This document shows, piece by piece, positions 3,005 to 18,049 of a stretch of DNA of 64,000 nt. Both the position numbers and the translations under genes were made by a program. The notes below the pieces were generated by a model. The model was not told where the DNA came from. It was given only the letters and a program-made list of their open reading frames with translations, and searched no databases. The stretch is from Methylomonas koyamae (GTDB lineage: Bacteria; Pseudomonadota; Gammaproteobacteria; Methylococcales; Methylomonadaceae), in NCBI RefSeq assembly GCF_006483455.1, contig NZ_PPPU01000019.1:1-64000 (forward strand), read 5' to 3'. Each line of letters starts with the position of its first letter. Positions within the stretch are counted from its first letter, which is position 1.

Positions 3005-3019
3005 CTAGACCTGACCCCA
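2986..3019. repeat. boundary element folded as a hairpin
   Basis: Left arm GTCAGATCTAG (2989-2999), loop AAATA, right arm CTAGACCTGAC (3005-3015); ten of eleven bases pair, and the GGG/CCC flanks extend it. The right arm plus CCCC is the element found at every other cassette edge. The RHS fragment fuses directly to it, and the element supplies the fragment's stop codon. REP/RAYT-like hairpins have this look, but no RAYT transposase gene is in the window. Confidence 0.6.
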
Positions 3020-3511
3020 TTCTGTTTTGAGGCTGGGCGTGCCGGCGTTTTCGGCCAGTAGCTGGCTGCCGGCGTAGGCGAAGGTTTGCAACGGTTTGCC
3101 CGGCCGGGTTTTGCCGACCCGGCGGCCGAAGGCGTCGTAGGCGTAGCCGGCCAGTATGCTAGTGCCGCTATTGATCTGCACCAGACGTTGGTCCGCGGCG
3201 TACAGGTAATCGACCGGCGTGCTGAGCACATTCCAGAACGACGATTTCAGTTCGGTTTGCGAGCGGTCGATTGCGCCGCGGGCATCGCTCCGGAAGTGGT
3301 TGAGTTGTTGGCCGGTCGCAGGGCTGCCCATCACCGTCCCCAACAATTGCTGGCTGTCCGGATCGTACCGGTAATCCGCCGTGCCGCCGCTAGAGCTGGA
3401 TTGCTGGGTACGGTTACCGACCGCATCGTATTGGTAATTTTGATTTTGCAGCGGATTGGCATGGCTCAGAGCGGTTAGTTCGCCGACGGCGTCGTAGGTG
3501 CAAGTTTGTCG
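3005..3511 (-). pseudogene. orphan RHS core fragment, no tip
   Basis: A minus-strand fragment of the RHS core, homologous to codons in the middle of the main rhs gene (from the YDAVGEL region through QLLAENAGTPS). It lacks the N-terminus, the hallmark YYSPELGRYLQSDPIGL block, any toxin tip and an immunity gene. At its 3' end the reading frame leaves RHS sequence at 3031 and stops within the boundary hairpin. In the shared region it is nearly identical to the main gene (one Ile/Met difference in the LVQINSGTS segment) and clearly different from the orphan at 4161-5420, so it was copied from the main gene or converted by it. No promoter or start is evident; it is most likely silent and could serve as donor DNA for recombination. 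Confidence 0.75.
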
Positions 3512-3590
3512 GATAAGAAACAGGTACGCGATGCGTGGCCTACTTGGCTTTCAAGGATGCTTAATTGCTAGACCTGACCCCGCTCTGCTC
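3512..3590. repeat. conserved cassette junction, copy 1
   Basis: The RHS homology of the fragment ends at 3511 and is followed by about 80 bases that are repeated almost exactly at 5454-5528. The shared part begins ATAAGAAACAGGTA and ends TTGCTAGACCTGACCCCG. The main rhs gene has no such sequence at the equivalent point, so the junction is a property of the orphan cassettes. Confidence 0.7.
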
Positions 3591-3639: not shown

Positions 3640-4167
3640 TTAATGCCATTTAATAGGCCCAATACACGAATTACTTGTTATTTTGGCATTAGAAAAGACC
3701 TCTGAAAATGGATTGCTATGCTTTTTGTGTTTCAGTTTTAACGCCCTGTATATATTTTGTTCATTTTCTTCCGCACTCCAAATATACCCATAAGTATCTG
3801 GAATAAGCACCTTATTATTATCTATTTTGACGCCAAAAAATATTGAGTCATGGAGATTCGAATTATCAAAAGCTGCCTCGTAATCTAAAAACCAAGTACA
3901 AAGCAATAATTTATCGTTTTTCAGAATATTTCCCCGATAAACTTTTATAACTTCGACTTCCATTATACCTATGGAAAGAGTATCCCCATCAGCAAAAACC
4001 AATCCATTCTTGATTGCTTTTTCCCGTAAAACACGACCTCTAAAAATTGTGTCCGCATCGACTGCCACTCGATTTAGCACTTCCTGACCAGACTCATTTG
4101 GGTGCGTTCTTGCCTGAATAAGCATTGAATTAACAAGCAGTAGCACAAAAAGAAATAGCTTTACCAT
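3640..4167 (-). CDS. exported putative immunity protein for the HExxH RHS tip
   Basis: A 175-residue protein whose ATG (4167) overlaps the stop of the orphan RHS tip by seven bases (ATGGTAA), so translation is coupled. The N-terminus MVKLFLFVLLLVNSMLIQA is a clear Sec signal peptide with a cleavage site after QA. The mature part is rich in beta-type sequence (EVEVIKVYRGNI, DKLLLCTWFLDYEA) and has no domain I can name; it vaguely resembles small periplasmic beta proteins. Position directly after a toxin tip, strong coupling and AT-rich composition make an immunity role likely. Export implies that the toxin acts in, or enters through, the periplasm. The family is not recognised. Confidence 0.65.
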   Translation of the reverse strand: MVKLFLFVLLLVNSMLIQARTHPNESGQEVLNRVAVDADTIFRGRVLREKAIKNGLVFADGDTLSIGIMEVEVIKVYRGNILKNDKLLLCTWFLDYEAAFDNSNLHDSIFFGVKIDNNKVLIPDTYGYIWSAEENEQNIYRALKLKHKKHSNPFSEVFSNAKITSNSCIGPIKWH

Positions 4168-5420
4168 AAATAAATATTGTTATAAAAGTCTTCATAATTT
4201 TCATAGGCAGCTCCAGGTAGCTCCGGATAATTTTTCCTAAAAGTTGCCGGATTGACAGGAGTTTTACCAAATAAACCATATTCAAATATAAAAGCATTAT
4301 CCTCTCTATAATTAAAAGGAGGGGAATGGGAAACTTCATGCCCAATTGTGTTTTCTAGTGATCCACATTGTTTATTGTTAAAGGCCTTAATTAGGTAGAT
4401 AGTGTTGCCGTAGTTTATTCCGCAATCATTCTTTGTCTTAGGAAGCTTTGGAGGAAATGAACAATCAAACGTAGTGTTATCTAACACTTGAGAAAACGCA
4501 TTGCCAGCACCTCCAATATTTGATTTTTCCTGTGCTATTGGACACGCTTTGTCAACTTGTTCTCTATGTTTCTGTTGGCAATTTGAACTAAATTCATACA
4601 ATCCTAACGGATCCACCGCATTGACCGGGTTATTTCCCACATAGGCATAGGTATTAATCCCCCCCGCCAACCCAATCGGGTCCGATTGCAGATAGCGGCC
4701 GAGTTCGGGCGAGTAGTAACGGGCCATATTGTAGTGCAGGCCGGATTCGGCGTCGAAGTACTGGCCGGGGAAGCGCAGGTTTTGGCTGATGGCGGCTGTG
4801 GTGGTCTGCATCAGGCCGAAGGGTTGGAGTTGGGCGGCCCAGACGGTTTGCCCGGCGGCATTGCTGGCTTTCAGCGGCACGCCCAGCGGGTGGTTGTGAA
4901 AGTAGTAGATCGGGCTATTGGCGGCGCTGCCGTCGATGCGAGCCAGCGGTTGGCCGTCCAGGTAGGCGTAGTGGCTGGGCGTGCCGGCGTTTTCGGCCAG
5001 TAGCTGGCTGCCGGCGTAGGCGAAGGTTTGCAACGGCCTGCCCGGCCAGGTTTTGCCGATCCGGTGACCAAAGGCGTCGTAGGCGTAACTGGCCAGCGGG
5101 CCGCCGCCGCTATTGATCTGCACCAGGCGTTGGTCCGGGGCGTACAGGTAATCGACCGGCCTGCTGAACACATTCCGGATGGACGATTTAAACTCTGCCT
5201 GCGAGCGGTCGATTGCGCCGCGGGCGTCGCTCCGGAAGTGGTTGAGTTGTTGGCCGGTCGCTGGGCTGCCCATCACCGTCCCCAACAATTGCTGGCTGCC
5301 CGGATCGTACCGGTAATCCGCTGTGCCGCCGCCAGGGCTGGATTGCTGGGTACGGTTACCGACCGCATCGTATTGGTAATTTTGATTTTGCAGCGAATTG
5401 GCGTGGCTCAGAGCGGGCAA
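4161..5420 (-). CDS. orphan RHS core plus HExxH metallopeptidase-like toxin tip
   Basis: A 419-codon open frame beginning inside RHS core sequence at a TTG (5420); RHS homology actually extends to 5453, where it meets the boundary junction. It carries YD repeats, the hallmark RYYSPELGRYLQSDPIGLAG and then a unique tip of about 150 residues from DPLGLYEFSSNCQQ onward. The tip has GHEVSH (codons 4340-4326) followed by an acidic stretch (REDNAFIFEYGLFG), matching the HExxH zinc-peptidase pattern, and two or three Cys pairs. It lacks an N-terminal secretion region and has no promoter, so it is a displaced C-terminal cassette that would need recombination onto the main gene to be used. An exported putative immunity gene follows with overlap. 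The tip is AT-rich, the core GC-rich. Confidence 0.75.
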   Translation of the reverse strand: MPALSHANSLQNQNYQYDAVGNRTQQSSPGGGTADYRYDPGSQQLLGTVMGSPATGQQLNHFRSDARGAIDRSQAEFKSSIRNVFSRPVDYLYAPDQRLVQINSGGGPLASYAYDAFGHRIGKTWPGRPLQTFAYAGSQLLAENAGTPSHYAYLDGQPLARIDGSAANSPIYYFHNHPLGVPLKASNAAGQTVWAAQLQPFGLMQTTTAAISQNLRFPGQYFDAESGLHYNMARYYSPELGRYLQSDPIGLAGGINTYAYVGNNPVNAVDPLGLYEFSSNCQQKHREQVDKACPIAQEKSNIGGAGNAFSQVLDNTTFDCSFPPKLPKTKNDCGINYGNTIYLIKAFNNKQCGSLENTIGHEVSHSPPFNYREDNAFIFEYGLFGKTPVNPATFRKNYPELPGAAYENYEDFYNNIYLW

Positions 5421-5453
5421 TTCGCCGACGGCGTCGTAGGTGTAAGTTTGTCG

Positions 5454-5528
5454 GATAAGAAACAGGTACCCGATGCGTACCCTACCCGGCTTTCAAGGAC
5501 GCTTAATTGCTAGACCTGACCCCGTTCA
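5454..5528. repeat. conserved cassette junction, copy 2
   Basis: Near-exact repeat of 3512-3590. It contains TTTCAAGGACGCTTAATTGC (5491-5510) and then TAGACCTGACCCCGTTC. It lies between the immunity gene of the main rhs gene (ending 5539) and the beginning of the orphan core, so it marks the right edge of the orphan cassette. Confidence 0.7.
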
Positions 5529-5538
5529 TTATATGAAA

Positions 5539-5982
5539 TTAGAACGGATGGTAATATGAGAAAACAAATTGACCAGATTGTCGCAAGCCTTTGCTTTCAA
5601 AGACACATTTAGCCTTTGTTTCAATCAAGCCATTACCTGCGACTGTAAAATATATCTCTCTCCGATCTATAAAAGATTTATGAACAAAGTTAAGAGCTTC
5701 TTCATTATCCTCTTTTGATGGATGAGTTGTTTGAATAAATGGCAGCCATGAATACCAAGGGACGTATTGATATTTTAATTTTATATCAAGCTGTTGGCAT
5801 CCACCAAACACTTGTTGATTATCGTGCTGCCCCTGTACACCTATAGTATAAACCCCGCTCAACTCAGAAAAAGCAGTAACTCTTACAATTGAATAATCAT
5901 CTCCACCGGCAATAGCATTATTGTTGCAAAAAATTAAATTTACTAACTGAAACAAAGCTATAGTACATATTTTTTTAGTCAT
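5539..5982 (-). CDS. exported putative immunity protein for the L,D-transpeptidase-like RHS tip
   Basis: A 147-residue protein starting nine bases after the rhs stop, so it is in the same transcript. The N-terminus (MTKKICTIALFQLVNLIFC, then NNNAIAGG) is a Sec signal peptide with a cleavage site at AIA-GG. The mature 120 residues show alternating beta-type segments and no domain I recognise. A periplasmic location is what an antitoxin to a cell-wall-modifying enzyme would need; immunity proteins for Tlde1-type effectors are known to be periplasmic. The role is inferred from position, coupling and export. It ends just before the boundary element at 5528. Confidence 0.65.
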   Translation of the reverse strand: MTKKICTIALFQLVNLIFCNNNAIAGGDDYSIVRVTAFSELSGVYTIGVQGQHDNQQVFGGCQQLDIKLKYQYVPWYSWLPFIQTTHPSKEDNEEALNFVHKSFIDRREIYFTVAGNGLIETKAKCVFESKGLRQSGQFVFSYYHPF

Positions 5983-5991
5983 ATTAGGTTG

Positions 5992-8900
5992 TTATTTAAT
6001 TGTCAATGTACCGTACGAAGTAATGTCTTCTGTTGGGTTCCACGGATAAGGTCCAGATCTATAAGGAATAGCTGTTGTGGAAGTATTGCTTATTAAATTA
6101 TTTATTTGATCCCACTGACTGTAACCGCTGCTACCATAGCTATTAGATGAATTAACAGTTACACATCCGTAACTTAGCCTTCCTGGATGCAATCTGGCTC
6201 CGCTTCGTTGCACACCATTTTCATAGAAATAATCATCTATTCTATTATCCTGCCTTAATAAACCGTACCACTGATAGTGAGCAACACTAAAATTCGGGTT
6301 GTCTGTTATGTAATAGGTTCCAGCAGGTGCTGGAAGGAAAGGAGCGGTATTTGTTTGCGTGACAAATCCGTATGGTTGATTAGCATAACCGCCAGTAAAT
6401 GCATTAGCAGTTACACTCGCGCCCGTATCTTGGTCAGTAACCGTAAGCGTATTGGTGTTTGTATCAAGTACCGCGTCAACTAAAAGTCCGCGCCTATCAG
6501 TGTACCTCAGCGGATTATTCCGAACATAGGCATAAGTATTAATCCCCCCCGCCAACCCAATCGGGTCCGATTGCAGATAGCGGCCGAGTTCGGGCGAATA
6601 ATAACGGGCCATATTGTAGTGCAGGCCGGATTCGGCGTCGAAGTACTGGCCGGGGAAGCGCAGGTTTTGGCTGATGGCGTTCGTGGTGGTCTGCATCAGG
6701 CCGAAGGGTTGGAGTTGGGCAGCCCAGGCGGTTTGCCCGGCGGCGTTGCTGGCTTTCAGCGGCACGCCCAGCGGGTGGTTGTGAAAGTAGTAGATCGGGC
6801 TGTTGGCGGCGCTGCCGTCGATCCGAGCCAGCGGTTGGCCGTCCAGGTAGGCGTAGTGGCTGGGCGTGCCGGCGTTTTCGGCCAGTAGCTGGCTACCGGC
6901 GTAGGCGAAAGTTTGCAACGGCTTGCCCGGCCGGGTTTTGCCGACCCGGCGCCCGAAGGCGTCGTAGGCGTAGCCGGCCAGCATGCTAGTGCCGCTATTG
7001 ATCTGCACTAGGCGTTGGTCCGCGGCGTACAGGTAATCGACCGGCGTGCTGAGCACATTCCAGAACGACGATTTCAGTTCGGTTTGCGAGCGGTCGATTG
7101 CGCCGCGGGCGTCGCTCCGGAAGTGGTTGAGTTGTTGGCCGGTCGCAGGGCTGCCCATCACCGTCCCCAACAATTGCTGGCTGTCCGGATCGTACCGGTA
7201 ATCCGCCGTGCCGCCGCCAGGGCTGGATTGCTGGGTACGGTTACCCACCGCATCGTATTGGTAATTTTGATTTTGCAGTGGATTGGCGTGGCTCAGAGCG
7301 GTTAGTTCGCCGACGGCGTCGTAGGTGTAAGTTTGTCGGGCCAGACTGGCGGTTTCGTCGTTGCTCAAGGTCATGTTACCCAGGCTGTCGTAGCCGTATT
7401 GCTGGCGAAACAGGTTGCCGGCGGTCTGCCGGGTCAGGCGGTAATCCAGGTCGTATTGGCGAATGTCGTTGAGGCCGTTGCCGTAGGTCAGGCCGGCGAC
7501 CGGGCCGAACGGCAGGTGGACGATCTTGTCCGCCAGCAGCCGGGTGGTGGTGGTGGTGCCGGATACGGTGTCGGCGACTTGCAGGCGCCGGACTTGTCCG
7601 GCGGCGTCGTATTGGTATTGCAGGCGGCGGCCGCTGGCGGGCTGGGTGTGGACGACGCGGTCGTCGGCATCGTAGCCGAAAGCCAAATCGCTGAGTACGG
7701 TGCCATTGGATGGTTTGCGTACCGCGCTGCCGAGCAGGTTGCCGCGCAGGTCGAATTGGTAGCGGGTAGCGATATCGCCGCGGCGGGCGTCGGTCAACCG
7801 GCCTTGCTGACCGGCAATATTGCCGGCAGTGCCGTCGTAACCGAATTCGGCGTCGGCTTCGCTGCCGGGATAATCGATACCCAGCAGACGGTTGAGGGCG
7901 GTGATGTTGGCGGCGTCGGTGGTTTGAGTCAGGTTGCCGGCGGCGTCGTAGGCGTATTGAGTCGCGCCGGTGTTGGGGCTGTCGACGCGGGTCAGGTCGC
8001 CCAGGCCGTTGTAGGTGTATCCGGTGTTGTGACCGGCAGCGTCGGTGACTTGGGTCAGGCGGTCCTGAGCGTCGTAATAATAGTCGGTCTGGCCGTTCAA
8101 GGCGTCGGTGGTGCGGATCAGCCGGTCCAGGCTGTCGTATTGGCGCTGGCTGACGTGGCCGGCGGCATCGGTGGTTTGAGTCAGATTGCCGTTGGCGTCG
8201 TAGGCGTAGCTCGTAGTTTGGTTGTAGGCGCCGATGTCTTGTTGCAGGCGGGACAAGGCGTCGAATACCCGGCTGCGGGTTTTGACGACGGTGCCGCTGC
8301 TATCGAGAATCTCTTCTTTGGTCCGATTGCCGATGGCGTCCAGCGTGTAATGAATCCGCCCGCCCAAGGCGTCGGTAATGTCGGTCAGGCGGTGGGCGGC
8401 GTCGTAGGTGTAGCGGAAAAACACGCCGCTGGGCCGGGTGACTTTAGTCAAATTGCCGGCAGGATCGTAGTCGTAGCGGGTAATGTTGCCGCCGACATTT
8501 TTTTGGGTCAGCCGGCCGCGGGCGTCGTAAGCGAAGCTGATCACCAGGCCGTTGGCTGCGGTCAGGCCGAGCGGACGGCCGTTGGCGTCGTAGGCGGTAA
8601 AGGTGGTGGTGTGGCCCAGGGCATTGCTGATCTGCCACAGGTCGCCGATATGGTGGGTGGACGCGGTATCGGTGTAATAGCGGTAGGTGGTGACGTCGCT
8701 AACGTCGGTCCGCGGGCCGTCGGCGGTCAGAATTTGGCCGAGGCTGTTGTAGGTGTAACTCCAACTGCGGCTTTGTTGGCTCGCGGTATCGGTGACGGTC
8801 TTGCGCAGCAGGTTGCCGCCGGTGTCGTAACTGAAGCTTGTGCGGCGGCCGGCTTCGTCGATTTGAGTCGGCAGCCGGTAGCTGGCGTGCCACTGGGTAC

Positions 8901-9873
8901 TGACTTTGCGGATGCTGCTGCCCGCGGTTGGGTTGTACGCCGCTAAATTGGCGGGACAACCGGAACCGGCCGGCAAGCCTTCCAGGCGCACGGTTTCCAG
9001 GTTGCGGCTCAGGTCGTAAGCGTAGCAGCTGAGGTTGCCGTTGAAGTCGGTTTGGCTGGCAAGGTTGCCGTTGGCGTCGTAGCTACGGGTTTGGGTCGCC
9101 GTACCGCCGCCGGTCGCGCCGGGCTGACGAAGGCCGGTGAGTTTCAAGACGTTCAGCACGTTTTGGAAGGTGTAATGCCGAGCCGTACTCAAGCTGTCAG
9201 TGACATCCGTACTGTTGTCGCTGTTGTAGACCAGGCTCACTTGCTCGGCACCGCCGGCATGCTGCGACAGATTGGCCCGGCCTTGGCTGTCGTAACTCCA
9301 GGTGGCGAAGCGGGCGCCGTTTTCGTCGGTGATGCCGGTCAGCGCATGCGGGAAAGTGGTATTTTCGTAATGGTAGCGGCGAATACTGCCGTCCTGGTAG
9401 GTGGCTTGGCTCAGGTTGCCCTGGCTGTCGTATTGGTACTGGCTGAACAATCCGTCAGGAAAGGTCGCGCGGGCGATACGGTTGGCGCTGTCGTAGCTCA
9501 ACTGCAGAGTATGGCCGAACGGCCCGGTGACGCTACTGAGCCGTTGCGAGGCGTCGTAGGCAAATGCGGTAACGCGGCCGTTGGTTTCGGTACGCGATTG
9601 GATACGGCCGCCGTTGTCGTAACGCTCGACAGTGCCGGCGGCATCGGTCAGCGTGTAACCGCCGCCGTCCTGGGTCAGACGCAAACGACTGTCGGCATCG
9701 CCGCTCCAGGTGCCGTTGGTCAGCGTAAACCATTCGGCACGGCCATCGGCTTGGTGGATAAAAATTTTGCCCGTCAAAATTTCCAGACTGGGCGAATATT
9801 GGTCACTCCAGCCGTATCCCAAGACCCCGTTTACGTTCCAGGCTCCGCTGTTGTAGTAACGGGCAAAACGCAA
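5992..9873 (-). CDS. RHS repeat protein with L,D-transpeptidase-like C-terminal tip
   Basis: The body of the main RHS polymorphic toxin. 1293 codons are counted from a TTG at 9873, but the frame is open to 10113, where a TAG separates it from its own N-terminus (10114-10467). The upstream open part reads through a Cys-rich segment and NPCDVSTGNKYQSETDF, a typical pre-RHS (DUF6531-like) sequence, so 9873 is not the natural start. Dozens of YD repeats (xYDxxGxL) build the shell; the core ends with RYYSPELGRYLQSDPIGLAG. The last 165 residues are the variable tip: LHPGRLSYGCVTV (catalytic-type Cys codon at 6165-6163) resembles the H...[ST]xGC signature of YkuD/DUF2778 (Tlde1) enzymes, which cut or exchange peptidoglycan peptides. 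The Arg normally after the Cys motif is not seen. An exported immunity gene follows. Confidence 0.85.
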   Translation of the reverse strand: MRFARYYNSGAWNVNGVLGYGWSDQYSPSLEILTGKIFIHQADGRAEWFTLTNGTWSGDADSRLRLTQDGGGYTLTDAAGTVERYDNGGRIQSRTETNGRVTAFAYDASQRLSSVTGPFGHTLQLSYDSANRIARATFPDGLFSQYQYDSQGNLSQATYQDGSIRRYHYENTTFPHALTGITDENGARFATWSYDSQGRANLSQHAGGAEQVSLVYNSDNSTDVTDSLSTARHYTFQNVLNVLKLTGLRQPGATGGGTATQTRSYDANGNLASQTDFNGNLSCYAYDLSRNLETVRLEGLPAGSGCPANLAAYNPTAGSSIRKVSTQWHASYRLPTQIDEAGRRTSFSYDTGGNLLRKTVTDTASQQSRSWSYTYNSLGQILTADGPRTDVSDVTTYRYYTDTASTHHIGDLWQISNALGHTTTFTAYDANGRPLGLTAANGLVISFAYDARGRLTQKNVGGNITRYDYDPAGNLTKVTRPSGVFFRYTYDAAHRLTDITDALGGRIHYTLDAIGNRTKEEILDSSGTVVKTRSRVFDALSRLQQDIGAYNQTTSYAYDANGNLTQTTDAAGHVSQRQYDSLDRLIRTTDALNGQTDYYYDAQDRLTQVTDAAGHNTGYTYNGLGDLTRVDSPNTGATQYAYDAAGNLTQTTDAANITALNRLLGIDYPGSEADAEFGYDGTAGNIAGQQGRLTDARRGDIATRYQFDLRGNLLGSAVRKPSNGTVLSDLAFGYDADDRVVHTQPASGRRLQYQYDAAGQVRRLQVADTVSGTTTTTRLLADKIVHLPFGPVAGLTYGNGLNDIRQYDLDYRLTRQTAGNLFRQQYGYDSLGNMTLSNDETASLARQTYTYDAVGELTALSHANPLQNQNYQYDAVGNRTQQSSPGGGTADYRYDPDSQQLLGTVMGSPATGQQLNHFRSDARGAIDRSQTELKSSFWNVLSTPVDYLYAADQRLVQINSGTSMLAGYAYDAFGRRVGKTRPGKPLQTFAYAGSQLLAENAGTPSHYAYLDGQPLARIDGSAANSPIYYFHNHPLGVPLKASNAAGQTAWAAQLQPFGLMQTTTNAISQNLRFPGQYFDAESGLHYNMARYYSPELGRYLQSDPIGLAGGINTYAYVRNNPLRYTDRRGLLVDAVLDTNTNTLTVTDQDTGASVTANAFTGGYANQPYGFVTQTNTAPFLPAPAGTYYITDNPNFSVAHYQWYGLLRQDNRIDDYFYENGVQRSGARLHPGRLSYGCVTVNSSNSYGSSGYSQWDQINNLISNTSTTAIPYRSGPYPWNPTEDITSYGTLTIK

Positions 9874-10110: not shown

Positions 10111-10467
10111 CTAGAAATCGAAAGTCCGTGGTGCAATACAGGTTGGTTGGACAGTTGAGTAGTAATAGCCATTGGAAGAGACAACTGCGCCGTTCACGCA
10201 ATGTGCGTAGGCCCTTATTATCCGGGGATTGGAGGGTAATCCCCCTTCCAAGCCCAAGGTGCAAGTACCATTCCAAGACGAGGAGTATGCGTTGTACCAG
10301 CATAATGCATCAGGTGAACCGTAGCCCGGAGTATTAGCACAGTTATACAAAGCTTCTGCAGGCCCAGCAAAAGCGAATTTGATCGGTATCCACAAAATTA
10401 GAAGGAGCAGATAGCGCAGACGTCCGTCGTTGTTGCTGAAATTATTATTTTTGAAATCGCAATTCAC
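10111..10467 (-). pseudogene. N-terminal part of the rhs gene, ended by an in-frame TAG
   Basis: A 118-codon frame from GTG 10467 to TAG 10111-10113, in the same frame as the RHS body. GGAAG sits eight bases before the GTG. Residues 1-35 form a Sec signal peptide (basic and Asn-rich start, then LRYLLLLILWIPIKFAFA with cleavage before GPAEA). The following Cys-bearing segment (NCANTPGYG, CWYNAYSSSW, CTLGLEGG, CVNGAV, CIAPRTFDF) runs into the stop. Beyond the stop the same style continues at once (TDTCQCPAGAIYNSSTNTC). A CAG-to-TAG change (Gln to amber) explains the break best. Either the gene is newly inactivated, or the stop is read through or suppressed, or it is a sequencing error. Confidence 0.7.
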
Positions 10468-13061: not shown

Positions 13062-13619
13062 ATGTTCAAATCTTGTTCGGATTTTCGGATTTGCCGTTCC
13101 GCCGGCCCTTGGCTGCTGGCGCTAGCGCTTGGTCAATTGGCCGGTTGCGCCAGCACCGAAAAGGCGCCGCCGCCGATTACCCTGCCGCAAACCGAAGGCG
13201 GCAACCGGATGGCCGTGGCCGAAGCGCTGCAATTGCAGGGCGCACCCTATGTTTACGGCGGCGAATCGCCCAGCGAAGGTTTCGATTGCAGCGGCCTGGT
13301 GTATTACGTGTACTACCGCCAAGGTTTGCGCCTGCCGCGCGACACCCAATCGTTGGCCCGGCAACTGCCGGCCGTGGCGCCGGAACAGCGCCTGCCCGGC
13401 GACCTATTGTTTTTCAATACCGAACGGCCCTACTCCCACGTCGGCATTTATATCGGCGGCGAACAATTCGTCCATGCGCCGAGCGCCCGCAGCGGCCGGG
13501 TCATGGTCTCCGACCTGCGCCAGCCCTATTGGCGCGAGCGCTTCATCGGCGTGCGCCGGCCGCTCAACCGCCAAGCCTTGTCTTTCAACGACCTTGGCGC
13601 CGGCTGCGGCTTCAATTAA
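13062..13619 (+). CDS. NlpC/P60 family lipoprotein (peptidoglycan endopeptidase)
   Basis: 185 residues. The signal sequence ends in the lipobox LAGC, so it is an outer-membrane or periplasm-facing lipoprotein. The NlpC/P60 domain holds all the expected catalytic residues: Cys in GFDCSGLVYYVY, His in YSHVGIYIG and a third polar residue in FVHAPS. Enzymes of this family cut the D-Glu-mDAP link of peptidoglycan stem peptides (as MepS/Spr does). Length is normal for the single-domain lipoprotein type. ATG 13062 is chosen over a TTG at 13047. The 3' end overlaps the convergent hybrid kinase gene by four bases. It follows the Ser/Thr kinase by about 80 bases and may be cotranscribed. Confidence 0.9.
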   Translation: MFKSCSDFRICRSAGPWLLALALGQLAGCASTEKAPPPITLPQTEGGNRMAVAEALQLQGAPYVYGGESPSEGFDCSGLVYYVYYRQGLRLPRDTQSLARQLPAVAPEQRLPGDLLFFNTERPYSHVGIYIGGEQFVHAPSARSGRVMVSDLRQPYWRERFIGVRRPLNRQALSFNDLGAGCGFN

Positions 13620-16600
13620 ACCCGGCCGCTGTCCCTGCCAATCAACGCCGAAAACTCGTCGGCCGGCATCGGCTTGCCGAACAAATAGCCTTGCGCCTGC
13701 TTGCAATGGTTTTGCCGCAAATACTTTGCCTGTTCGGCAGTTTCCACACCCTCGGCGATAACTTCGAACTTTAGAATCCCGGCGATCGAAATGATCACTC
13801 GCACGATCGCCGCGGCATCGTCGTCGTGCATGATGTTGGCGACAAAGGATTTGTCGATCTTCAGTTTGTCGAATACGAACTGTTTCAGTTGGTTCAAACT
13901 GGAATAGCCGGTGCCGAAATCGTCGATCGATATCTGCATCCCGGCGTTTTTTAAGCGCGACAGAATTTCACGCTTTTGTTCCGGATGGCGAATGAACAGG
14001 CTTTCGGTCAATTCCAATTCCAGATACTCGGCCGCCAGCCCGGATTCGCGCAAAATCGCGATAACTTGTTCGGCGAAACCGTCCCGGTCCAACTGCTTGG
14101 CCGAGACGTTGACCGCGACCACGAACGGCGGATGGCCGCTTTGTTGCCACTGCCGGTTCTGCCGGCAAGCCTCGCGCAGCACCCAGGCGCCGATCTCTTC
14201 GATCAAGCCAATCTCCTCCGCCACCGGAATAAACTGGTCGGGGGATATCATACCCAGCTCCGGATGCCGCCAACGAATCAAGGCCTCGGCGCCGATCACG
14301 CGGCCGGAATCCAAATCGATCTGCGGCTGGTAATGCAAAAAGAATTCGCGGCGCTGCAAGGCCCGGCGTAAATCGCTTTCCAGGCGCAATTTGCTGGAAA
14401 CCGCAAACTCCATGCTCTGTTCGTAGAAGCAAAAGGTATTGCCCTGCTCCTTGGCCCGGTACATCGCGGTGTCGGCGTGCTTAACCAGCAGGCCGCTGTC
14501 CTTGCCGTCGTAAGGGGACAAGGAAATGCCGATACTGGAGCTGATATAAAACTCCTGCCCCATCAACGCGAAGGGCTTGGCGATGGCATTACAGATTTTT
14601 TGCGCCACCGCCGCGGCATCCTGCGGATTGCCGATATGCTCCAGCAACAGAATGAATTCGTCGCCGCCGAAGCGCGACACCATGTCTTCGCGGCGGACGC
14701 AAGCCTGTATCCGCTCGGCGGCGGCCTTCAGCATCAAGTCGCCGACATCGTGACCCATGGTGTCGTTGGTCAGTTTGAAGCGGTCCAGATCCAGAAACAG
14801 CACCGCATGCTGGGCCGGCACCGCCGCAGGTTTGGCCAGCACCCGGTTCAAGCGCTCCATAAATTGCACGCGGTTGGGCAGATTGGTCAACGGATCGTGG
14901 TAGGCCAGCCGATTCAGGCTGCGCTGGCTTTGGCTGGCTTTCAGCAAATGGGCGATGCGCTTGCGCAACACCGTGAAATGAATCGGCTTCGGAATGAAAT
15001 CGTTAGCGCCGGTGGAGAAGGCCAGTTCGACCGAATGTTCGTTCTCCAGCGCAGTGATCATCAGAATCGGCACCTCCGCGCCGTGCGGTAATGCGCGGAT
15101 GGCTTTGCAAGCAGCGAATCCGTCCATTTCCGGCATCATCGCGTCCATCAAAATCAAATCGGCCATTTGCCGCGCGCACAAAGCCACGGCCTGCCGGCCG
15201 GTGACGGCCACATCGACGGTATAGCCGTCCTGTTGCAAGATGTCCTGCAAAGCCACGCGCAAAACCCGGTCGTCGTCGGCCACCAGCACCCGCGGCCCGA
15301 TCTGCGCCAACGCTTGCTCGCCGGTCGGCTCGGCGTCGATTTCCGCCAGCAGCAGCCGTTCCAGCGTGCGGAACTCGGTCAGCAAGCTCTCGGCCATGCG
15401 CTCGGCGCCCGCGGCCAAGGCACCGTTTTCGGCCGCCAATTCCAATTGGCGGGCCGTTGCCGCCAGTCTTTCCCCGCCCAAACTGCCGGCAGCGCCTTTC
15501 AAGGCGTGCGCCAGTTCCCGCAACCGGCCCAAGTCCGCGTCCCGCACAGCCTGACCGATTTGCGCAATCTGCGGCGGCGCATCCTCCACAAAAAAGCGGA
15601 TCATTTTGGGGTATGCGCCGCCGACTTCCTCGCGCAGTTGCAACAAGGTTTCGCGGTCCAGGGTCGCCGGTTCGGCTCCGGCAGACGCTGCCGCGGCATC
15701 GCTTGCCTCGGCCAGCGGCAGCCGCCGATTTTCGCTGTGGTTAAGCAATTTTTGCCGCAAGGCCTTCAGCTTGATCGGCTTAGCCAGGAAATCGTCCATG
15801 CCGACGGAACGGCACTGCTCTTCGTCGCCGCGCAGGGCGTTGGCTGTCATCGCGATGATCGGCACCCGACTCGGCGCCCCCGGTAACGCCCGGATACGCC
15901 GCGTGGCTTCGAAGCCATCGATGCCGGGCATGTGGCAGTCCATCAGTACCACGTCGAACGCTGCGGATTCCACCCTCTCCAAGGCTTCCGCCCCGGAGGC
16001 GGCGATTTGGTAACGGCAACCCAAGCGTTCCAGCATGCCGGCCGCCACCATTTGCCCGGCCCGGTTGTCCTCCACCACTAAGACGTTCAAGGCCAATGCC
16101 GATCTGTCGAAGGCTGCTTGCGCTTCTTCACCGCCGGTTAGGACCTGCGAACAATCGGCAGTCAATAAATCATATAGATCGGCCGCCGTTACCTCCCCAG
16201 GAAAACAGGCCGCTAAATACGGTAAATCGGGCAGCCCTTCTACGGAGGCGGCATGATTCAACACGATGAACCTGGTCTCCTCCCAGCCGCCGCCAATCCG
16301 CTCCAGCCATTGGTGTGCCGAAGCGCTTGCCATATCGACCACTGCAAAACGGTAGGCTTGACCCTGGTCGCGGCCGACCTGCAATAGTTCGGCCGCATGA
16401 CTATCGAAACCGCTAAGGTGGTAACGAACCTGCCATTCTGCGAGATTGCCCGTCAGGAAACGGCCGGTTTGCTCGTTATCGGTCACTACCAGAATGTTCA
16501 GGTGAGCAAAACAATCCCGTCGCGCATTGGACAAGATTACGCTACCGCCCGGAGCCCGGAACGGTAAACTAAACCAAAACCGACTCCCAAGGCCCAGCCG

Positions 16601-18049
16601 GCTGTCGACCCCGATGTTCCCGCCCATCAGCTGTACCAGCTGTCGGCAAATTGCCAGTCCTAGGCCCGCACCTTCGTAGTGGCGGGTAGTGGAGCCGTCA
16701 GCTTGCACGAAAGCGTCGAAAATCCGGTCTTGCGCCTCCGCCGGAATCCCCATGCCGGTATCGGTAACGCTAAAGGTCAGCAACAATTGGCCGTCGCCGG
16801 CCGACGACGACGCCACGCCGATTTCGATCTCGCCTTGATCGGTGAATTTCAGTGCATTACCGACCAAATTGAGCAAAACTTGGCGGACTCGGCTCGCTTC
16901 GCCGGTTAGCTGTTCCGGCACACCGTCGGCAATTTCATAGCGCAGCTGCAGGTTCTTGCGTCTGGCCTGGGCCGCCATCAGTTCGACCACATCCTGCACG
17001 ATTTCCTGCAACACGAAATCGCTGGACTGGGACTTCAACATGCCGGACTCGATTCGCGAAAAATCCAGAATGTCCTCGATCAATTTCAGCAGCGCCTCGC
17101 CGGCGTTACGAGCGACTGTCGAGTATTCCAGTTGTTTGGGCGTCAGTCCCATGTCTTGCAACAACTCCAGCATGCCCAACACCGCATTCAACGGCGTCCG
17201 CAACTCGTGGCTGACATTGGCCGCGAATTCGCCTTTCAAGCGGGCCGATTCCAAAGCTTTGTCGCGTGCGCGCTCCAATAACTCCTCGCGGGTCTCCAAG
17301 ACCTGCATCATGGCATTGAACGCCGCCCCCATGTCGGTAATATCGCGCGGCCCGGACAATTTTGCTCTGACATGCTTCTCGCCGGCAGATGCCTTGCCCA
17401 TCCGCTTCGCCAATTGCTGGATCGGCAAGGTCAGGCGGCGGGCCATGGTCAGCAAAAACACGAAAGACACCAGGGCGGCGGCGGCGGAAACCGCCAGGGT
17501 GACGAATTGAATCTGCCGTTTCATTGCCAGCAACGAGCGTTTGCCGACCGCCAAGCGCACATAGCCGATCAGTTCCTGCGCCGGGCTCTGCGCCTCGAAC
17601 GGCGACGCCGTTTCGCCGCCGCGTCTGGCGAAAACCGGTGCAGCAAAATACCAAGCGCGTTCTGTTTCCGCCACCAATTGCAAGGTTTCGGGCCAAACTG
17701 AACCGTCGTCTTCCGCCGGCAACGCCGACTCGCCCATCTCCAGCAAAGCCTGACGATCCGTGTTGTAAATCGCCACACCCCTGACATCCGGCGAAGACAG
17801 AAACCGTTTGGCCGGTTCTTCGGCATTTTCGCGGCTGGCATAGAGCAGAGCCACCGTGCTTTGGGCGGCGAAGGCTTCCGTCGACTGCCGGCCTTGCGCC
17901 AGCCATTTGTCGCGGACCACGCCGTACGACAGCTCGGAGATACCGAACGAGGACAACAACGAAACCACTAAAAGGCCGCAAGTAAAGGCTACTGCCAGTT
18001 GCTGCAGAAAACTCGACCGGCGAAAACTGAACCCCAATCTTGGCGGCAT
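13616..18049 (-). CDS. hybrid sensor histidine kinase with REC, HPt, GGDEF and EAL domains
   Basis: 1477 residues, an unusually complete signalling chain. Order: TM (about 18-38), periplasmic sensor, TM (about 183-203), HAMP, HisKA with SHELRTPLN (His near 280), HATPase_c (VGNALKFTDQG, GAGLGLAICRQL), a degenerate receiver (LNILVVTDNEQTG), a receiver with VVLMDCHMPGIDG (Asp near 701), an HPt domain (AHALKGAAGSLGG), a third receiver (LILMDAMMPEMDG), a diguanylate cyclase with intact GGDEF (near 1126) and a phosphodiesterase with EALIRW (near 1253) and DFGTGYSSL. It should pass phosphate through REC-HPt-REC to control c-di-GMP turnover. The gene starts five bases after an ABC-type substrate-binding protein gene, which likely acts as its periplasmic ligand sensor. 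Confidence 0.92.
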   Translation of the reverse strand: MPPRLGFSFRRSSFLQQLAVAFTCGLLVVSLLSSFGISELSYGVVRDKWLAQGRQSTEAFAAQSTVALLYASRENAEEPAKRFLSSPDVRGVAIYNTDRQALLEMGESALPAEDDGSVWPETLQLVAETERAWYFAAPVFARRGGETASPFEAQSPAQELIGYVRLAVGKRSLLAMKRQIQFVTLAVSAAAALVSFVFLLTMARRLTLPIQQLAKRMGKASAGEKHVRAKLSGPRDITDMGAAFNAMMQVLETREELLERARDKALESARLKGEFAANVSHELRTPLNAVLGMLELLQDMGLTPKQLEYSTVARNAGEALLKLIEDILDFSRIESGMLKSQSSDFVLQEIVQDVVELMAAQARRKNLQLRYEIADGVPEQLTGEASRVRQVLLNLVGNALKFTDQGEIEIGVASSSAGDGQLLLTFSVTDTGMGIPAEAQDRIFDAFVQADGSTTRHYEGAGLGLAICRQLVQLMGGNIGVDSRLGLGSRFWFSLPFRAPGGSVILSNARRDCFAHLNILVVTDNEQTGRFLTGNLAEWQVRYHLSGFDSHAAELLQVGRDQGQAYRFAVVDMASASAHQWLERIGGGWEETRFIVLNHAASVEGLPDLPYLAACFPGEVTAADLYDLLTADCSQVLTGGEEAQAAFDRSALALNVLVVEDNRAGQMVAAGMLERLGCRYQIAASGAEALERVESAAFDVVLMDCHMPGIDGFEATRRIRALPGAPSRVPIIAMTANALRGDEEQCRSVGMDDFLAKPIKLKALRQKLLNHSENRRLPLAEASDAAAASAGAEPATLDRETLLQLREEVGGAYPKMIRFFVEDAPPQIAQIGQAVRDADLGRLRELAHALKGAAGSLGGERLAATARQLELAAENGALAAGAERMAESLLTEFRTLERLLLAEIDAEPTGEQALAQIGPRVLVADDDRVLRVALQDILQQDGYTVDVAVTGRQAVALCARQMADLILMDAMMPEMDGFAACKAIRALPHGAEVPILMITALENEHSVELAFSTGANDFIPKPIHFTVLRKRIAHLLKASQSQRSLNRLAYHDPLTNLPNRVQFMERLNRVLAKPAAVPAQHAVLFLDLDRFKLTNDTMGHDVGDLMLKAAAERIQACVRREDMVSRFGGDEFILLLEHIGNPQDAAAVAQKICNAIAKPFALMGQEFYISSSIGISLSPYDGKDSGLLVKHADTAMYRAKEQGNTFCFYEQSMEFAVSSKLRLESDLRRALQRREFFLHYQPQIDLDSGRVIGAEALIRWRHPELGMISPDQFIPVAEEIGLIEEIGAWVLREACRQNRQWQQSGHPPFVVAVNVSAKQLDRDGFAEQVIAILRESGLAAEYLELELTESLFIRHPEQKREILSRLKNAGMQISIDDFGTGYSSLNQLKQFVFDKLKIDKSFVANIMHDDDAAAIVRVIISIAGILKFEVIAEGVETAEQAKYLRQNHCKQAQGYLFGKPMPADEFSALIGRDSGRV

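Follow-up and report, generated by a model that had tools for sequence, protein, structure and literature searches.

What does an RHS protein of Methylomonas koyamae carry at its C-terminus, and can this cargo still leave the cell that makes it? We analyzed 64,000 nucleotides of contig NZ_PPPU01000019.1 (assembly GCF_006483455.1, positions 1 to 64,000 of the forward strand; hereafter the window), in which an RHS open frame ends in a tip that the initial annotation had likened to L,D-transpeptidase and Tlde1 cell-wall toxins. Domain searches of the 1372-codon frame detected DUF6531, 14 stretches of RHS repeats (PF05593), and an RHS core (PF03527, TIGR03696) followed by the tip. As judged from the sequence, a variable tip behind RHS repeats and a core is the architecture of an RHS polymorphic toxin. 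The features of the locus are listed in Table 1. The locus is very likely an RHS polymorphic-toxin cassette with a Tlde1-type tip and an adjoining candidate immunity gene, for which we infer the substrate, toxicity, immunity, and delivery.

Table 1. Features of the RHS locus in the window
Feature	Position	Strand	Description
Likely start of the RHS gene	10114-10467	minus	GTG start, Sec-type signal peptide, Cys-containing N-terminal region
In-frame TAG	10111-10113	minus	parts the signal-peptide segment from the RHS shell
RHS open frame, 1372 codons	5992-10110	minus	DUF6531, RHS repeats, RHS core, Tlde1 tip
Tlde1-domain (L,D-transpeptidase-fold) toxin tip, predicted	5992-6490	minus	last 165 residues of the RHS protein; PF10908, AF2 model, fold matches
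Tip codons, Arg	6205-6207 and 6193-6195	minus
Tip codon, His	6187-6189	minus	CAT
Tip codon, Tyr	6169-6171	minus
Tip codon, Cys	6163-6165	minus	TGT
Candidate immunity gene, 147 aa	5539-5982	minus	signal-peptide-like N-terminus, position after RHS
Orphan RHS core fragment with another tip	4161-5492	minus	tip with GHEVSH (HExxH-like); 90% identical to main core
Candidate immunity gene of orphan tip	3640-4167	minus	after orphan tip, signal-peptide-like N-terminus
Second orphan RHS core fragment	3005-3550	minus	ends before any tip; 97% identical to main core
38-nt repeat at cassette boundaries	5490-5527, 3548-3585, 2417-2454	plus

The tip was compared with Pfam and matched PF10908 (Tlde1_dom) far above chance, scoring 45.8 bits where the cut-off is 30.1 (E 9.8e-12). 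No other profile, including YkuD (PF03734), was matched at E≤10, and the tip was therefore not assigned to the YkuD family proper. Thus, of the two families named in the initial annotation, YkuD received no match, and DUF2778, which we take to be the earlier name of Tlde1_dom, was confirmed. This synonymy is consistent with the available text of PMC10434147. The extent of the tip, its motif (LHPGRLSYGCVTV), and the position of its Cys were all as first described. The tip is the only Tlde1 domain detected in its own genome; when it was used as a query against 201 genomes of the family, 7 genomes, including its own, gave a match at E≤0.001. To collect relatives more widely, genome contigs were scanned with two patterns lying outside the catalytic motif, which yielded 52 loci. 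After exclusion of partial and near-identical loci, the window and 43 of these loci were assembled into an alignment of 44 rows, all of which matched PF10908 and three of which also matched YkuD (E≤0.01). These results indicate that the tip is a Tlde1-type domain, a relative of the L,D-transpeptidases.

We also examined the predicted structure. An AF2 model of the tip, built with the 44 sequences, had a mean pLDDT of 76.8 and a pTM of 0.79, and its best Foldseek match was YkuD (1y7m; E 9.4e-4, TM 0.43-0.45). With VIA-align 2, in which Z differences below 1 count as ties, the model was aligned with Pgp2 (Z 9.7, rmsd 3.9, 126 aligned), LdtMt1 (Z 9.4, rmsd 2.5, 96 aligned), Csd6 (Z 9.4, rmsd 3.9, 126 aligned), Tlde1a (7uma; Z 8.9, rmsd 3.2, 112 aligned), and YkuD (Z 8.6). 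Pgp2, among the closest folds, is an L,D-carboxypeptidase. Csd6 is termed an LD-CPase in the accessible portion of PMC9638812. All 50 structure matches listed belong, by title or recall, to the L,D-transpeptidase superfamily, and no unrelated toxin fold was found among them. The modeled tip therefore has an L,D-transpeptidase fold, and the likeness first proposed is borne out by both the PF10908 score and the fold comparison. The PDB was also searched by sequence, by phmmer and with a profile of the 44-row alignment. The phmmer search was uninformative, and the profile matched no PDB sequence, Tlde1a included, so that the link between the tip and Tlde1a rests on the Pfam model together with the fold.

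The gene that follows the RHS frame starts 9 nt past the RHS stop. Its product begins with MTKKICTIALFQLVNLIFCNNNAIA, which fits a signal peptide both by eye and by hydrophobicity, as the initial annotation had proposed for this gene. The hydrophobicity of the product was 1.58, just below the threshold of 1.6, with an N-terminal value of 2.25. A single-sequence fold model gave a mean pLDDT of 38.7. A search for relatives returned only the product itself in 37 genomes of the genus and 369 genomes of the class, and none in plasmids; its role in immunity is thus proposed from its position and its signal peptide. In Tlde1 loci, the next gene as a rule encodes a small hydrophobic protein, and many of the downstream open reading frames (ORFs) begin in a 4-nt overlap. 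Among 54 loci inspected, 45 had a near ORF, of which the longest was taken, some being spurious frames; on this count the downstream ORF contained a strongly hydrophobic stretch (threshold 1.6) in 40 of 45 loci, compared with 39 of 101 control ORFs. Small hydrophobic neighbors across Tlde1 loci fit immunity in the envelope, and it is plausible that the partner product in the window is a periplasmic immunity protein.

The G+C content of the tip was 40.9% and that of the partner gene 34.5%, compared with 62.1% for the core; across the locus, tips and partner genes ranged from 34.5% to 40.9% and cores from 61% to 63%. A cassette of low G+C, made up of the tip and its partner gene, sits on an RHS core of high G+C, beside displaced orphan fragments. 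In the longer orphan, the RHS-like part starts near 5459, and its tip (4161-4694, minus strand), which contains GHEVSH, matched nothing in Pfam at E≤10; it is possibly a second envelope-acting toxin. The 38-nt repeat was found in four copies in the genome (35-base pattern, ≤3 mismatches), three of them here and one on contig C19 (48595), and it may mark recombination or REP-like ends. PADLOC returned nothing informative on the locus. Elsewhere in the window, a frame of 1477 codons (13616-18049, minus strand) resembles, by eye, a hybrid histidine kinase in which receiver, GGDEF, and EAL parts are combined.

The first listed start of the 1372-codon frame is a TTG at 9873, which lies within DUF6531, and the likely start of the gene lies upstream of the in-frame TAG, which the initial annotation had not mentioned. 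In four relatives (G094, G141, G201, and G209), the corresponding RHS gene is a single open frame of 1464-1485 codons, and the order of signal peptide, Cys-containing region, and DUF6531 (the last assigned by likeness to the window frame) is common to five relatives. The gene in the window is probably broken by the TAG, the other possibility being an error of the assembly at this codon. As the TAG lies between the signal peptide and the shell, export of the toxin at present is improbable. The locus might also be a decayed relic whose toxin the TAG has silenced. Only the immunity gene and the fragments with tips would then survive, perhaps as a store of cassettes or to guard against kin in which the toxin is still present. 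We consider the chance of this to be somewhat below even. Besides the stop and the uninterrupted frames of the four relatives, it is favored by the two further core fragments already displaced close by, and by a genome of the same species (G061) in which neither the tip nor the N-terminal region found a match. On the other hand, the 1372-codon frame, the tip, and the partner gene are intact apart from the TAG, the assembly is a draft of 89 contigs in which a lone stop may be erroneous, and the cassette could yet recombine onto another shell. A relic would be compatible with the preferred reading of the locus as a Tlde1-type toxin cassette, which concerns the identity of the tip.

The active site was then compared among the relatives. 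An expression demanding R[LIF]HP and SxGC in an open frame was passed by 50 of the 52 loci; the failures were L082, whose frame is broken, and L086, in which His and Cys are replaced. The latter (5944-6339, Burkholderia sp. Bp9143) is a Tlde1 relative with RLNP and SEGY in place of the two catalytic residues and, to judge from these replacements, is probably an inactive copy. In the 44-row alignment, Arg105, Arg109, His111, Ser116, Gly118, and Cys119 (tip numbering) were invariant, the motif columns partly because the loci had been selected on the motif; Arg105, six residues before His111, was present in all 44 rows. The Arg that usually follows the Cys motif is indeed absent from the tip, as had been noted, but the idea that its absence signals an unusual activity was rejected: in none of the 50 motif-bearing relatives is either of the two residues after Cys an Arg. 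The invariant Arg109, two residues before His, may replace the Arg of YkuD enzymes in carboxylate binding. The spacing between His and Cys was 11 in 44 of the 50 loci and 8 in five. Three of these five (L049, L060, and L061) are stand-alone proteins, which refutes a spacing of 8 as a hallmark of RHS tips.

Tlde1a, a type VI secretion system (T6SS) effector of Salmonella Typhimurium (7UMA), shares with the tip the L,D-transpeptidase fold, the order of His and Cys, the Ser before x-Gly-Cys, an Arg six residues before His (Arg115 and His121 in Tlde1a), and an adjoining immunity gene, for which the window offers a candidate. According to the available sections of PMC9638812, the motif residues of Tlde1a are H121, S128, H129, G130, and C131; the type is defined by a (S/T)HGC motif with His129, a residue lining the pocket where cleavage occurs; toxicity requires R115, to which the D-amino acid binds; and among the single mutants tested, toxicity was lost in all but D40A. 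Judged by its spacing, Arg105 of the tip would play the role of R115. The tip has SYGC, with Tyr117, in place of SHGC, and because of this difference it is not classed as a Tlde1a orthologue. It also differs from Tlde1a in its His-Cys spacing (8 compared with 10), in having a single Cys and hence neither of the disulfides C66-C86 and C37-C111, and in its carrier, a signal-peptide-bearing RHS shell.

Since Tyr replaces His129 and the two disulfides are missing, the tip might combine an L,D-transpeptidase fold with another chemistry, for example crosslinking or the cutting of a different bond, and the shorter spacing points the same way. We regard this as unlikely, because the residue before Gly in SxGC is other than His in all 50 motif-bearing relatives, and because the closest folds among the matches listed include L,D-carboxypeptidases. 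This position is free in the family, so that Tyr117 represents no special loss.

With the tip placed among the Tlde1-type domains, its relation to other RHS-borne and stand-alone members was investigated. Besides the window, RHS-borne Tlde1 tips were found in two further genomes (G094, locus L003; G147, locus L004), a Methylococcaceae MAG (L042), and Acinetobacter (L041 and L093), the hosts thus being methanotrophs and Acinetobacter. Identity to the tip was 56% for G094 and 31-43% for G147, L042, L041, and L093. All five resemble the window in having a core followed by a tip with a short motif of the HPGxxSxGC type, whereas their partner genes are unlike that of the window. In a tree of 47 rows, in which two of the RHS rows have long branches, the six RHS rows lay on one side of a branch with support of 96/76; this branch was recovered in 96% of 200 bootstrap trees, and none of 500 shuffles was as low. 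Stand-alone Tlde1_dom proteins, such as those of Burkholderiaceae and Acetobacteraceae, have the same domain and active site as the tip, but they lack the RHS shell, typically show a spacing of 11, and are usually followed by a small hydrophobic protein. Derivation of the tip from the stand-alone Tlde1 gene of a member of the genus (G038) was rejected, as that gene groups with the stand-alone rows. The two Acinetobacter tips span 6010-6510 (L041) and 5028-5552 (L093) of their loci; the latter is plasmid-borne and annotated as a tlde1 domain-containing protein, and a likely exported partner gene overlaps its end.

RHS toxins with an L,D-peptidase domain and linked immunity genes were reported in 2012 (Zhang et al., PMC3482391), and they share with the window the RHS repeats and the L,D-peptidase tip, as well as the linked immunity gene if the candidate next to the tip is one. 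The kind of toxin is therefore already known, although the terms DUF2778 and YkuD do not occur in the available part of that text. Our literature search found nothing that combines RHS, a signal peptide, and Methylomonas. What is new here is the grouping of RHS tips on one branch, the exported-looking neighbor gene, the two orphan cores, and the TAG after the signal peptide.

A T6SS effector, in place of a protein exported by Sec, is a highly improbable reading of the RHS protein: a baseplate gene of the T6SS (PF05936, VasE/TssK) occurs in the genome, with a further RHS gene on the same contig (C5), but the domain search of the 1372-codon frame reported no PAAR domain (E≤0.1), and a Sec-like signal peptide is present in the N-terminal part and in five relatives. 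PAAR-RHS shells usually bear tips that act in the cytoplasm, according to the available text of PMC12994826. A broader proposal, which we offer only tentatively and consider rather doubtful, is that a methanotroph branch of Sec-exported RHS proteins without PAAR delivers a Tlde1 enzyme to the periplasm of neighbors without a T6SS. This branch would have its own active-site variant, with a short HPGxxSxGC loop and the Arg two residues before His acting for the post-Cys Arg of YkuD.

In the cassette as we interpret it, an exported RHS shell would bear at its C-terminus a Tlde1-type cysteine enzyme of the L,D-transpeptidase fold. Acting in the periplasm of a neighboring cell, the enzyme would most likely cut the bond between mDAP, the third residue, and D-Ala4 in the tetrapeptide stems of peptidoglycan or, alternatively, swap D-Ala for another D-amino acid, and wall homeostasis would fail as a result. 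The exported product of the partner gene would most likely shield the producer in its own periplasm. In the present assembly, the TAG would detach the signal peptide from the shell, making export now improbable. The family assignment makes a simple test of the catalytic Cys feasible. A wall-editing tip borne by a signal-peptide RHS shell raises the question of a route to the periplasm of the neighbor, and the locus would extend a known kind of toxin to methanotrophs.
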